Both the position numbers and the translations under genes were made by a program. A stretch of 64,000 nucleotides of DNA, taken from the NCBI RefSeq assembly GCF_016937515.1, contig NZ_JAFHKM010000002.1, positions 2,289,001 through 2,353,000 on the forward strand, given 5' to 3'. Positions within the stretch are counted from its first letter, which is position 1, and the number at the start of each line of letters is the position of its first letter. Of the stretch, positions 4,205 to 50,414 are shown piece after piece. Origin of the DNA: Cohnella algarum (GTDB taxonomy: Bacteria > Bacillota > Bacilli > Paenibacillales > Paenibacillaceae). The notes beneath the pieces are model-generated. The model was not told the DNA's origin, searched no databases, and saw only the letters and a program-made list of their open reading frames with translations.

Positions 4205-4893
4205 GGAGCGTCCGCCTCTTCCGTGGCCATGTAGCCCTGGCCGACTTTCGTTTCGATGTAAACGGCCAGGCCGATCGCCTCGAGCTTTTTGCGCAGCCGG
4301 TTGACGTTGACGGTCAGCGTATTGTCGCTGACGAATTGCTCGTTGTCCCACAAGCTCCTCATCAGTTCTTCCCGGTCGACGATCTTGTTTTTGCGTTCGA
4401 CGAGCGTTTTTAAAATGAGCATTTCGTTTTTCGTCAGCTCGACCGCGCCCTCGCCGTTCGTTACGGTATTGCGGACGTACTCGACCGCGGCGCCCCGCCA
4501 GGTTCGAAGCTCGACCCGATCGGTGCCGTAATCGTAAACGCGCCGCAGCGTGGCCTGGATTTTGGCGATCAGCACGTCGAAATGGAACGGCTTCTGCACG
4601 AAGTCGTCCGCGCCGAGCTGCATGGACATCACCATGTCGGTCGGGTGATCCCGCGAGGACAGGAAGATGATCGGCACGTTGGAATGGGAGCGGATCATCC
4701 GGCACCAATGGAAGCCGTCGAATTTCGGCAGCCGGATATCGATAATGACCAGATGGGGCTGGATGGCGGTAAACTCCTGCAGCACCTTGCCGAAATCCTC
4801 GACGCCGAAAACGTCGTAGGACCATTGCGTAAGCCGCTCCTTCACTTCCCGGAACAGCGTCAGGTCGTCTTCGATCAGCATGATTTTGAACAA
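4201..4893 (-). CDS. BceR-type OmpR-family response regulator
   Basis: A 230-aa regulator. The receiver domain carries acidic residues Glu8-Asp10, phosphoacceptor Asp52 (IIDIRLPKFDG) and Lys101 (QKPF), followed by an OmpR/PhoB winged helix. The start is uncertain: TTG 4893 has a GGGGTGA-like ribosome site and keeps the full first strand; ATG 4881 is an alternative. It is the first gene of the regulator-kinase-ATPase-permease run on the minus strand and is divergent from the sigma-factor gene. It likely activates the bceAB genes through the palindrome at 3184-3207. Confidence 0.92.
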   Translation of the reverse strand: MFKIMLIEDDLTLFREVKERLTQWSYDVFGVEDFGKVLQEFTAIQPHLVIIDIRLPKFDGFHWCRMIRSHSNVPIIFLSSRDHPTDMVMSMQLGADDFVQKPFHFDVLIAKIQATLRRVYDYGTDRVELRTWRGAAVEYVRNTVTNGEGAVELTKNEMLILKTLVERKNKIVDREELMRSLWDNEQFVSDNTLTVNVNRLRKKLEAIGLAVYIETKVGQGYMATEEADAP

Positions 4894-46925: not shown

Positions 46926-46987
46926 TTGAGTAAATTACCCAACTCGGCCGACCGCGAGCCTGGAACCGCGCCCGGTTGAGTAACCAT
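46926..46987. repeat. 52-bp family repeat, left part of an array split by an IS
   Basis: TTGAGTAA at 46926 and 46976 are separated by a 50-bp unit in which the A-tract linker is 2 bp shorter than elsewhere. The sequence breaks at ACCAT (46983-46987), where the IS3-type element begins, and resumes with ACCAT at 48251. The remainder of 46725-46925 holds no supported gene. Confidence 0.8.
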
Positions 46988-47055
46988 GCAGCTAGAATAA
47001 AAGATGGACACTCGTTAAGATAAACCCAATAATAAGATTAACGGGAGGTGTTCAC

Positions 47056-47352
47056 ATGGGTGGACAACGGGTGCATTACAACGAGGAGTTCAAACAAAGA
47101 ACGGTAAGGTACATCCAGGAACAAACGAAGACGGTCGTACAGATTGCGCAGGAATTGGATATTCCGGAAAAGACGTTATACGGGTGGGTAGCAAAGTATC
47201 GTCAGTTTGAGGTCGAGCCCGTTAACAGCGCAGATCGGATTCGTGAGCTGGAATGGCTTCTCCGCGAGAAAGACAAGCAGGTTGCAGACCTCGAACAGGA
47301 GCTTGAAATCATAAAAAAAGCAGTGCACATCTTCAGCAGCCCAAGAAAGTAA
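47056..47352 (+). CDS. IS3-family transposase OrfA
   Basis: 98 aa. A helix-turn-helix of the Tnp-8 type (VQIAQELDIPEKTLYGWVAK) and a C-terminal leucine-zipper-like helix (IRELEWLLREKDKQVADLEQ). The frame contains a slippery heptamer A AAA AAA at 47313-47319, in register with the orfA codons. A minus-one shift there leads into orfB and would make the active OrfAB fusion. Alone, OrfA acts as a regulator in related elements. Confidence 0.92.
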   Translation: MGGQRVHYNEEFKQRTVRYIQEQTKTVVQIAQELDIPEKTLYGWVAKYRQFEVEPVNSADRIRELEWLLREKDKQVADLEQELEIIKKAVHIFSSPRK

Positions 47353-47390
47353 GATTTCAATTCATTGAAGATCATCGCTCCGACTTTCCT

Positions 47391-48212
47391 GTGGAGAAGA
47401 TGTGCGCGGTACTCGGTGTTTCTCGGAGCGGTTATTACAACTGGAAGGATGCGCAGCCAAGCAACCAAGCCCTTCTGAAGGAGAAGGTGATGGAGCGCAT
47501 CACGTATCATTTCTACGACAACAAAGAACGGTACGGGAGCCCGAAGATCACGCACTTGTTGCATGAAGAGGGCTTTCAAATAACCGAGCGAACGGTAAGC
47601 AACTACATGCGGGAGTTAAACCTGCGTTCCTGCGTATCTCGTAAATTCAAGGTCGTTACCACCGACTCCAATCACAACAATCCCGTCGCCCCGAACACGC
47701 TAAATCAAGCGTTTGCAACGGAGAAGCCGAATCAAGTATGGGTTGCAGATATTACGTACATTCCTTGTAACGAAGGCCGCTTGTACCTCGCGAGCCTGCT
47801 AGACCTATGCACACGTGAGGTCGTTGGATGGCGTCTGGGAGACCGCATGACCGTCGATCTGGTCCTGGGCGCGCTAGATGACGCCTACGAAGCGAAAAAG
47901 CCGCCGGAAGGCCTTCTGCACCACAGCGATCGTGGTTCCCAATACACGTCAGAAGATTACCGTAAGCAACTTGAAACCTACAAAATGGAAGCCAGCATGA
48001 GCCGAAAAGGAAACTGCTATGACAATGCGTGCATCGAGTCCTTCCACAGCATTCTGAAGAAGGAGCTCATTTACTGCACCAAGTTTAAAACGAAAAAGCA
48101 GGCGTACGACGAGATCTACGAGTACATCATGCTGTTCTACAACCGCAAACGAATCCATGGTGCACTTGGCTATCTGTCGCCGGTTCGTTTTGCTGCCAAC
48201 TTTGCTTCTTAA
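47391..48212 (+). CDS. IS3-family transposase OrfB (DDE integrase core)
   Basis: 273 aa from GTG 47391; in practice made as a fusion from the slip site near 47319. An HTH-like start (MCAVLGVSRSGYYNW) is followed by the rve core: WVADITYIP (first Asp), HHSDRGSQYTSEDY (second Asp) and DNACIESFHSILKKEL (Glu), then YNRKRIHGALGYLSPVRF. All three catalytic acids are present, so the element looks intact and possibly active. Confidence 0.92.
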   Translation: MEKMCAVLGVSRSGYYNWKDAQPSNQALLKEKVMERITYHFYDNKERYGSPKITHLLHEEGFQITERTVSNYMRELNLRSCVSRKFKVVTTDSNHNNPVAPNTLNQAFATEKPNQVWVADITYIPCNEGRLYLASLLDLCTREVVGWRLGDRMTVDLVLGALDDAYEAKKPPEGLLHHSDRGSQYTSEDYRKQLETYKMEASMSRKGNCYDNACIESFHSILKKELIYCTKFKTKKQAYDEIYEYIMLFYNRKRIHGALGYLSPVRFAANFAS

Positions 48213-48254
48213 TTACTCAATTTGAGTGTCCACTTTCTTGACAGAGGTTCACCA

Positions 48255-48358
48255 TTACCCAACTCGGCCGACCGTGATCCTGAAACCGCACGCAGTTGGG
48301 TAACCATTACCCATCTCGACCGAGCGTGAGCCTGGATCCGCACTCAGTTGAGTAATCC
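48255..48358. repeat. 52-bp family repeat, middle part of the array
   Basis: TTACCC starts at 48255 and 48307, 52 bp apart. The first unit has a perfect 10-bp inverted repeat, TTACCCAACT...AGTTGGGTAA. The array is cut again at GTTGAGTAATCC (48347-48358), where the IS110-type element appears to begin. Confidence 0.88.
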
Positions 48359-48597
48359 CCTATGACGTTACCGTCACCGCCATAGATGAAAATGTGGTCG
48401 TACGCATCCTTTTATCCTTCTTACATTCTGGACAAACAGATAATGAACAGATCAAAAGACGGAAATTTATTGGTCCCCCGTTGAGTAATCCGTCTTATTG
48501 CAGTTTGCGAGAGCCGCCCATTGTCCCTAAAGACGCGTATAAACTCTCTCCTTTAGGACTGCATGGTCTGTTTAATCTGAAACAAGAGGGTGTTGGT
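48359..48597 (+). ncRNA. Putative bridge RNA region of the IS110 element
   Basis: A 239-bp non-coding left end before the transposase start, where IS110-group elements are known to encode the bridge RNA that pairs with target and donor DNA. GTTGAGTAATCC at 48480-48491 is identical to the 12 bp flanking the element (48347-48358). CGTATAAA at 48536-48543 is identical to the right end of the element (49978-49985). The order, target-like then donor-like, matches known bridge RNAs. RNA ends and folding were not determined. Confidence 0.45.
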
Positions 48598-49834
48598 ATG
48601 GATGCTGTACGTCAAATTTGTGCTGGTCTGGATGTCCATCAGGAAACCGTAGTTGCATGCGTCTTGTCGGGTTCGTTGGAGCACAAACCCAAGTCCGAAA
48701 TCCGCACGTTCGGTACCACTACCCGCGAATTGCTGGAGTTGCAGGATTGGCTCGAGGAGCGCGAGTGCCGAGAGGTAGCGATGGAGAGCACCGGTGTGCT
48801 GTGGAAGCCAATATGGAACGTCCTGGAGTCCACCTGTGAATTGACTCTCGCCAATGCACGGCAGATTCAAAAGATGCCGGGACGTAAAACCGACGTTCAA
48901 GACGCACAGTGGATCGCCCAGTTGCACCGCTGCGGGTTGGTACAACCCAGCATGGTCGCCCCACAAGAAATCCGTGAGCTTCGGGACTTGACGCGGTATC
49001 GTCGCAAACTGGTGCAGCAAACGACCTCCGAGAAGAACCGTGTTCACAAAATCTTGCAGGATGCCAACATCAAGCTCACCACCTTTATGTCCGATTTGTT
49101 TGGCGTCTCCGGCCGGGCTTTATTAGACCGACTTGTCGACGGCGAGGTATTGGAGGAGGCGGAAGTTCGCCAGCTCGTCAAATCCCAGTTGAAGAAGAAA
49201 GTCAAACCACTCATGGACGCACTGAATGGTAAACTGCTGAAACATCATCGCGAAATGATCAAGTACCACCTGGAGCACCTGAAGTTTCTCGAGGATCAAA
49301 TTGGGCGGTTAGAAGAGAAAGTTCAAGCGCTGATCCAACCATACGAAGAAGAGGTGAAATTGCTAGATACGATTCCCGGCATGGATCGCACAGCGGCAAT
49401 CACGCTGCTGGCTGAAATTACGCCTAATGCGGCTAAGCATTTCTCGTCAGATGCCAAGCTGGCCTCTTGGGTCGGTGTAGCCCCTGGGAACAACGAAAGT
49501 GCAGGCGTGAAAAAAAAAGTTAAAGCCCGTAAAGGGAACAAACATGCAAAAGGGATCTTATGCCAAGCGGCATGGGCAAACGCTAGAAGCAGTAACCCGA
49601 ATTGGCGACTATTTCAGGAGGGTAAGAAAGCGCCGAGGTGACCAAAAAGCAGCTGTCGCCACAGCCCATCTGATTTTGCGAATCGCCTATGCGATGCTTC
49701 GAGACCGGGTAAATTACCAGGAAATTGAATCCATCGTATTTCAGGAGTCGACCTCCAAGATGGTGGAACGTTTAACGAAACAGTTGCACCAGCTTGGATA
49801 TAATGTCGATTTGAAACCTACTGGAACAACCTAA
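48598..49834 (+). pseudogene. IS110-family DEDD transposase, frameshifted near the C-terminus
   Basis: ATG 48598 behind AGAGGG. The N-terminal RuvC-like domain has GLDVHQETVVACVL (Asp), MESTGVLWKPIWNVLE (Glu) and RKTDVQDAQWIAQL (two Asp). The C-terminal transposase-20 domain has DTIPGMDRTAAITLLAE and ASWVGVAPGNNESAG with its conserved Ser. At about 49600 the frame runs into GGKKAPR-like codons and stops at 49641. Removing one C from the CCC in AACCCGAATTGG restores NRIGDYFRRVRKRRG and the normal end (HLILRIAYAMLRDRV) to 49834. If the insertion is real, the element cannot move by itself. Confidence 0.8.
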
Positions 49835-49842
49835 ATTTTTAA

Positions 49843-49982
49843 AAAAATTAGGGTTAAGATTTCGGGGTAGTGGGTCTTTTTTTTGCCTTCTTACGGCACT
49901 TCATTTTCGTATAAAAATTAGGGTTAAGATTTCGGGGTAGTGGGTCTTTTTTTTGCCTTCTTACGGCACTTCATTTTCGTAT
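49843..49982. repeat. Two direct copies of a 70-bp block at the IS110 right end
   Basis: AAAAATTAGGGTTAAG begins at 49843 and 49913, and the following 54 bp match throughout, including a T8 run and ACTTCATTTTCGTAT. The second copy meets the repeat array directly. A duplicated right end could come from a failed or repeated transposition event. Confidence 0.85.
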
Positions 49983-49986
49983 AAAA

Positions 49987-50316
49987 AATTACCCATCTCG
50001 ACCGAGCGTGAGCCTGGAGCCGCGCTCAGTTGAGTAAAAGTTACCCATCTCGACCGACCGTGAGCCTGGAGCCGCGCTCAGTTGAGTAAAAATTACCCAT
50101 CTCGACCGACCGTGAGCCTGGAACCGTGCTCAGTTGAGTCACCATTACCCATCTCGACCGACCGTGAGCCTGGAGCCGCGCTCAGTTGAGTAAAAATTAC
50201 CCATCTCGACCGACCGTGAGCCTGGAACCGCGCGTAGTTGAGTCACCATTACTCATCTCAACCGGCCGTTCACCTAGAACCGCGCGCAGTTGAGTAACTA
50301 TTACCCCTCTCGACCG
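49987..50316. repeat. 52-bp palindromic tandem repeat array (TTACYCA family), right part
   Basis: TTACYC starts at 49989, 50041, 50093, 50145, 50197, 50249 and 50301, each spaced exactly 52 bp. Each full unit runs TTACCCATCTCGACCG...GAGCCTGG...CAGTTGAGTAA, with linkers AAAA or CACCA. The region 50317-50414 between the array and the GH130 gene shows nothing further. Confidence 0.95.
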
Positions 50317-50414
50317 GCTATATGGGGATATGGGTATGGGTGCGGAGAAAAATCAGAGGCTCAAGGTGGCGGAGGGCACGGCGGAGGGCTATGTCGATGA
50401 CCGGCTCCTCTACC

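Follow-up and report, generated by a model that had tools for sequence, protein, structure and literature searches.

Introduction

In IS621, the 5' side of the target loop of the bridge RNA pairs with the bottom strand of the left target half and the 3' side with the top strand of the right half, as laid out in the text of PMC11208160 and PMC11208158, and handshake bases, which directly follow the 3'-side guide, fit the other DNA once the exchange has taken place (text of PMC11208158). The text of PMC11187229 places the top-strand match first in the tested IS1111 members and second in ISEc21, the sole IS110 member tested there. We read the ends and guides of IS621 by eye from the sequences of three copies, where the left flank ATCAGGCCT matches ATCGGGCCT, located 5' of GCGTAG, and GCGTAG in the left end is the reverse complement of the right flank CTACG(C/T). 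Bridge recombinases are being developed as genome-writing tools on rules from IS621 and a few others.

Here we describe an IS110-family element of Cohnella algarum, located in a 64,000-nt stretch of contig NZ_JAFHKM010000002.1 that we refer to as the window and to which all coordinates below apply unless another locus is named. A preliminary description of this stretch had proposed that the left end of the element gives rise to a bridge RNA and that the surrounding repeat array is its programmed target.

The element and its copies

The element and the array in which it is inserted have the following features.

48254..48355, + strand: 52-bp repeat array, left part; its direct repeats recur every 52 nt
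48347..48353 and 48354..48355, + strand: left half-site GTTGAGT and core AA; GAGTAA is found at 5 of 5 left junctions
48356..49985, + strand: IS110-family element with doubled right end; five genomic copies, ends placed from junctions and rebuilt empty sites
48360..48385, + strand: left-end hairpin CTATGACGTTACCGTCACCGCCATAG; arms vary yet stay complementary, as judged by eye in 18 aligned left ends
48385..48394, + strand: conserved GATGAAAATG, which forms a short subterminal inverted repeat with CATTTTC of the right end
48598..49834, + strand: transposase gene, split in the window copy by a frame break (ORFs 48598-49641 and 49544-49834)
49840..49985, + strand: right end, two tandem 70-nt copies (direct repeat), each closing with CGTATAAA
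49986..50312, + strand: right part of the array, with right half-site AAATTA at 49986-49991

The genome contains five near-identical copies of the element, the four besides the window copy (L001) being 99% identical to it. A DNA search of 40 related genomes gave matches in five, including relatives of the own genome, with 73% identity in the best other genome (G006); PADLOC gave no match. An unbroken transposase frame of 411 amino acids, starting from the ATG that lies at 48598 in the window copy, is present in L003, L004 and L005, which we infer to be active copies, and the frame is broken in L002 as in the window copy. The protein matches the domains DEDD_Tnp_IS110 and Transposase_20 (Pfam, 96.8 and 70 bits) and NF033542 (NCBIfam, 233 bits against a cut-off of 140), matches that place it in the IS110 family in the broad sense. 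IS621 was matched in the PDB (E = 2.1e-7), and in this match its catalytic residues D, E, D, D and S are aligned in the transposase, as read by eye.

The left end comprises 242 nt (48356-48597) located 5' of the transposase gene. In the window copy, as in others, the transposase frame stays open on the 5' side of the ATG, starting from 48394; the left end is called noncoding, by analogy, because most relatives start at the same ATG. The hairpin at 48360-48385 could be the 5' stem-loop of the bridge RNA. The subterminal inverted repeat (TGAAAAT/ATTTTC) is 6-7 bp long and unevenly placed; TGAAAAT occurred in 30 of 39 upstream and ATTTTC in 33 of 39 downstream stretches, as rough string counts in which some matches lie off the end.

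The doubled right end, consisting of a 70-nt direct repeat (49840-49909 and 49910-49979), is specific to the window copy, the other genomic copies carrying one right end. The run AAAAATTA is common to the end of the 70-nt repeat and the target flank, and slippage is a possible origin of the doubling given this shared run. In the reversed copy L005, the right end is 14 nt short at its terminus, and the right half-site next to it is missing as well (1480-1520 of that locus). Just left of the element, in the same repeat array, is an IS3-family element (46928-48250, ORFs 47056-47352 and 47391-48212), with array units also on its far side (about 46928-46990).

A CRISPR array in the same genome contains a 32-nt spacer that matches the element (L008 1496-1527, also L116; G000:C2:2852289-2852320). 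The spacer is identical to the left junction of all five copies (AATCC and the next 27 nt) and is a predicted self-targeting spacer against the element; the ten other listed spacers are 33-36 nt long. A gene for Csd1, a marker of type I-C systems, is located elsewhere (C2:745659-747479). The PAM of type I-C systems is TTC, and here a TTC is located two bases too far from the spacer match, which may allow the cell to tolerate this spacer.

Insertion into a dispersed repeat

All five genomic copies are inserted after GAGTAA at the same point of the repeat unit, and the left junction in each of them reads GAGTAA followed by TCCCCTATGACG. The preliminary description had suggested a comparison of the flanks of other copies, and this comparison largely upholds its claim: the unit position was the same in 5 of 5, with four copies in strict arrays and L004 in a degenerate one, and spread of the element through repeat arrays is to this extent borne out for five copies. 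The strict array pattern accordingly covers the sites of four of the five copies.

The bases TCC at 48356-48358 are present at 5 of 5 left ends in the genome. They were assigned to the element because of this recurrence and because their omission from the target rebuilds a 14-nt empty site with core AA. Such exact empty sites, rebuilt with a donor junction CGTATA-AA-TCCCC, were identified in neighbouring units for L001, L002 and L003. No exact empty neighbour was found for L004 in the neighbouring units searched, and L005 has no right junction. In other genomes, exact 14-nt empty sites were present beside L020, L037, L038 and L039, for a total of 7 of the 26 elements entered. Six copies in Paenibacillus faecis (L052-L056 and L067) are located at CCGTTAA or CCGCTAA and have differing right flanks; a search for exact empty neighbours of these six gave none.

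The junction pattern GAGTAA-N0-6-TTACYCA was found at 84 places in the genome and the pattern read backwards at 0. Grouping by a 5-kb gap yielded 67 distinct junctions in 28 clusters, many of them 52 or 104 bp apart. L001, L002, L003 and L005 are located in or beside such clusters and L004 outside them. A relative in G006 (L018, 73-77% identity) has its insertion site within an array of 51-bp units (GGCAATAGTGCC...) that represents a different repeat family, and its guides AAAGT/TAGCG fit that array. Our literature search retrieved no report of IS110 insertion sites in tandem repeats of Paenibacillus.

Shared positions would also be expected if the five copies were not independent insertions and a single copy had spread with its array by duplication or by recombination between arrays. 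The arrays are repetitive, and copies have both lost (L005) and gained (L001) a right terminus. However, the sequences of the array units next to the five copies are not the same, nor are the right half-sites (AAATTA, AATTTA, ATATTA and AAAATA), three of which equal those of their own neighbours, and no long shared flanks beyond the element are visible between copies in the 160-200 bases compared. We consider such passive spread very improbable and favour repeated guided insertion into the same unit position.

Predicted structure of the bridge RNA

Relatives were collected in a scan of a genome collection with an alignment of seven relatives, and the best 80 of at least 537 confirmed relatives were kept. 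From these and the earlier loci we selected 24 elements with a readable left end, which make up the alignment A4. The following features were assigned in the left end of the window copy.

48444..48583, + strand: predicted bridge RNA core; covariance model R1, E = 3.4e-25, the sequence having been in the training set of the model
48462..48470, + strand: 5' side of the target loop, GAAATTTAT, predicted right-target guide; the reverse complement ATAAATTTC contains the core region and AATTTC
48481..48490, + strand: 3' side of the target loop, TTGAGTAATC, predicted left-target guide TTGAGT, core AA and then TC, the first two bases of the element
48536..48543, + strand: predicted donor guide CGTATA and core AA, in the same sense as the right end; based on tracking of 16 distinct ends

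The consensus fold of A4 contains a target hairpin with a closing stem that shows compensatory changes among the 24 relatives and an internal loop that holds the guides. The 5' side of this loop is 9 nt long in 21 of 24 elements and the 3' side 10 nt in 24 of 24. The donor part of the consensus fold is resolved at its base, the donor loop itself not being resolved. Run over 81 loci, a covariance model built from A4 found 71 matches at E values up to 1, and a search of 48200-50400 against Rfam up to E = 1 gave no match. We infer that an RNA is made from the left end and bound by the transposase.

The preliminary description had named the placement of both matches in internal loops as a check. 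The consensus fold of the 24 relatives agrees with this placement; the minimum-energy fold of the single sequence speaks against it, since it draws much of the 12-nt match described below as base-paired across the target hairpin. The loops were assigned from the A4 columns, not from the single-sequence fold.

Two more distant bridge-RNA matches are located in the same genome (G000:C2:2420938-2421084 and 2450335-2450481), next to IS110 relatives that are about 55% identical. At L065 of Alicyclobacillus tolerans, the first element is immediately followed by a second bridge-RNA match (4435-4580); the right end CCTATCAATCC continues straight into a further left end CCTCATGCC, much as in a circle junction or in an insertion of one element at the terminus of another.

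Target guides track the flanks in mirrored order

Two matches within the left end had been noted in the preliminary description, and both are present as described: the 12-nt GTTGAGTAATCC at the left flank (48347-48358) and in the left end (48480-48491), and the 8-nt CGTATAAA in the left end (48536-48543) and at the right terminus (49978-49985). The 12-nt match had been taken as the target in full. This holds for GTTGAGT and the core AA, but the last three bases, TCC, belong to the element's own left end, so that the boundary falls at 48356 and the left target part proper is 7 nt long. In a set of 100,000 first-order Markov sequences generated with the composition of the left end, the 12-mer occurred in 5, the 8-mer in 530 and the 9-nt target part GTTGAGTAA in 177. 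The order, target loop and then donor loop, also fits as proposed.

To examine the guides across relatives, we took the loop columns from A4 and set the flanks by the end motifs, with the left flanks of L046, L065, L068 and L073 and the outer right junction of the window copy set by hand. The left guide, the first six bases of the 3' side, matched the left flank at 4.95 of 6 positions compared with 1.58 for mismatched pairs (22 of the 24 elements having a left flank, 19 distinct guides counted). The right guide, the reverse complement of the 5' side, matched the right flank at 4.44 of 6 positions compared with 1.99 (19 of 24 elements with a right flank, 16 distinct guides counted). Both values were reached in 0 of 100,000 shuffles, counts that are not to be read as probabilities since the rows are related. 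For 22 guides outside the first set of elements the left test yielded 3.64 versus 1.60, with automatic and partly misplaced flanks kept, and removal of four guides shared with the first set left 18 guides with 3.50 versus 1.73 (0 of 100,000 shuffles).

In the own copies, the left guide matched at 6, 5, 6, 6 and 5 of 6 positions and the right guide more loosely, at 4, 5, 3 and 3 of 6, L005 being without a right junction. Weak right matches were also observed among the relatives L046 (2 of 6), L042 (3 of 6) and L068 (3 of 6), and the left flank of L018 matched at 3 of 6 in fixed register.

The predicted left-target guide thus occupies the 3' side of the target loop, opposite the right-target guide on the 5' side, an order swapped relative to IS621 that the preliminary description had overlooked. 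The Cohnella element taken alone cannot decide the guide order since its own target is nearly palindromic (GAGTAA..TTACTC), and the layout might be the canonical one known from IS621 and, by the report in the text of PMC11187229, ISEc21, with the left guide on the 5' side, the right guide on the 3' side and a 3'-side match helped by the near-palindrome. The relatives argue against this: the canonical left assignment yielded 1.55 compared with 1.62 for mismatched pairs, reached by 63,963 of 100,000 shuffles (22 elements), and the canonical right assignment 1.95 compared with 1.65, reached by 13,277 of 100,000 (19 elements), repeated guides being kept in both tests. We therefore give the canonical layout very little weight and retain the mirrored order for the predicted RNA.

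Relatives of about 38-48% identity, inspected by eye, also show the swapped order or, at the least, the left half of it, namely those from Paenibacillus, Neobacillus and Aneurinibacillus, from acidobacterial and cyanobacterial records and plasmid copies of Streptomyces, Glutamicibacter (annotated ISArsp3) and Caballeronia; L122 and L124 were counted neither way in this survey. In 21 of 22 elements (14 with AC and 7 with TC, the exception being L018), the loop continues after the core with the same two bases as those that begin the element, and these, by analogy, look like the mirrored counterpart of the IS621 handshake guides.

That the protein itself prefers palindromic repeats, and that the matches in the left end are a fossil or due to chance, would agree with a target repeat that is palindromic and dispersed, and palindrome binding is common among transposases. 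Yet relatives with other flanks have other loops that match those flanks, and the 9-mer followed by the 8-mer occurred in 1 of the Markov sequences, which puts the chance of both own matches in order at about 1 in 100,000. This explanation is in our view highly unlikely, and guidance by the RNA is preferred.

The donor side

The sequence CGTATAAA is found at 48536-48543 and 49978-49985 and also at 49908-49915, the third occurrence being present because the window copy carries its right end twice. We compared right ends with the 3' half of the predicted RNA for 32 elements entered, of which L095 has no right end, and repeated ends were dropped. The 16 distinct right ends matched their own RNA at 6.75 of 7 positions compared with 4.99 for others (0 of 100,000 shuffles), with ends picked by motifs chosen after the sequences had been seen. 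For the left end, a comparison of the 5' side of the donor region with the left end in 17 elements gave 3.53 versus 3.53, and no donor guide was found. The donor match noted in the preliminary description is thus confirmed across relatives for the right-end half of the donor, with no guide found for the left-end half in these 17 elements. As a guess, the covarying left-end hairpin and the short inverted repeat may serve end recognition in place of a guide.

A circle joining 49978-49985 to 48356 would read CGTATAAATCC. The TATAAA in this sequence is similar to a -10 box and lies just upstream of the RNA, and promoter function in the circle is a possible second role of the donor guide.

Proposed mechanism

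We interpret the locus as an RNA-guided IS110-family element with a bridge RNA made from its left end and with mirrored target guides, an explanation that we hold with a probability of about 0.88. It builds on the copies, their junctions, the core, the loop position, the tracking of flanks by guides and the swapped order, all of which are read from sequence. The left-end RNA would present a target loop and then a donor loop. CGTATA-AA in the donor region would pair with the right end of an excised circle, and the DEDD/serine recombinase would join circle and target at the AA core, with a circular intermediate and strand chemistry presumed by analogy to be as in IS621. Once strands have been exchanged, the two bases after the core, which are the same as those at the left end of the element, may pair. 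The guides would specify the boundary at which units of a dispersed repeat family meet, and the element would for this reason settle in array after array, a guide matched to a dispersed repeat offering it many landing places. The covarying loops, handshake-like bases and exact empty sites make the mirrored order directly testable.

Comparison with known systems

The element resembles IS621, as described in the text of PMC11208160 and PMC11208158, in its DEDD/serine recombinase, an RNA upstream of the gene, a target loop before the donor loop, guides in an internal loop and a 2-nt core common to target and donor. Insertion into dispersed palindromic repeats, which are REP elements in IS621, is also shared, as are bases that come directly after the 3'-side guide and fit the other DNA, their handshake role in the Cohnella element being putative. 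It differs from IS621 in that the left and right guides are swapped, the core is AA rather than CT, the transposase has 411 amino acids rather than about 326-328, and one donor half is without a visible guide.

Compared with the ISEc21 seekRNA (IS110 type, text of PMC11187229), the upstream noncoding region and the absence of a target duplication are alike, whereas in ISEc21 the bottom-strand match is 5' of the top-strand match, the reverse of the Cohnella element. Of the layout common to IS621 and ISEc21, the Cohnella element thus has the RNA upstream of the gene but not the bottom-strand (left) guide 5' and the top-strand (right) guide 3'. With IS1111 members it shares a top-strand match 5' of the bottom-strand match and an inverted repeat near the ends. 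According to the same text, the noncoding region of IS1111 is mostly downstream, with exceptions mentioned, rather than upstream; the transposases have 330-350 rather than 411 amino acids; and the subterminal inverted repeats are longer, 7-17 bp compared with 6-7 bp.

The text of PMC11187229 also names an IS110 subgroup with transposases of 395-455 amino acids, which the Cohnella element fits in transposase size and upstream RNA; a guide order for this subgroup was not found in that text. The relatives annotated as IS110 and ISArsp3 that share the swapped order by eye are a further likeness to this subgroup. A mirrored group with left-end RNAs is unstated in the text of PMC11208160, PMC11208158, PMC11187229 and PMC12045711. 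Relative to these texts, what is new is that a branch with the RNA upstream of the gene has its guides in mirrored order.

We lean slightly towards a broader reading, in which an IS110 branch with transposases of about 400 amino acids and left-end RNAs has target and donor guides mirrored relative to IS621, handshake bases likewise mirrored and one donor end perhaps recognised without base pairing. Its reach would include Bacillota, Actinomycetota, Acidobacteriota, Cyanobacteriota and others. If there is such a large mirrored branch, with one donor end lacking an obvious guide, loop assignments made by the IS621 scheme would be wrong for it, and guide order and RNA position would be separable traits in the IS110 family. 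Such a branch would combine the gene order of the IS110 type with the guide order of the IS1111 type, in the manner of an RNA-recombinase core that stayed the same while the ends about it were reversed.
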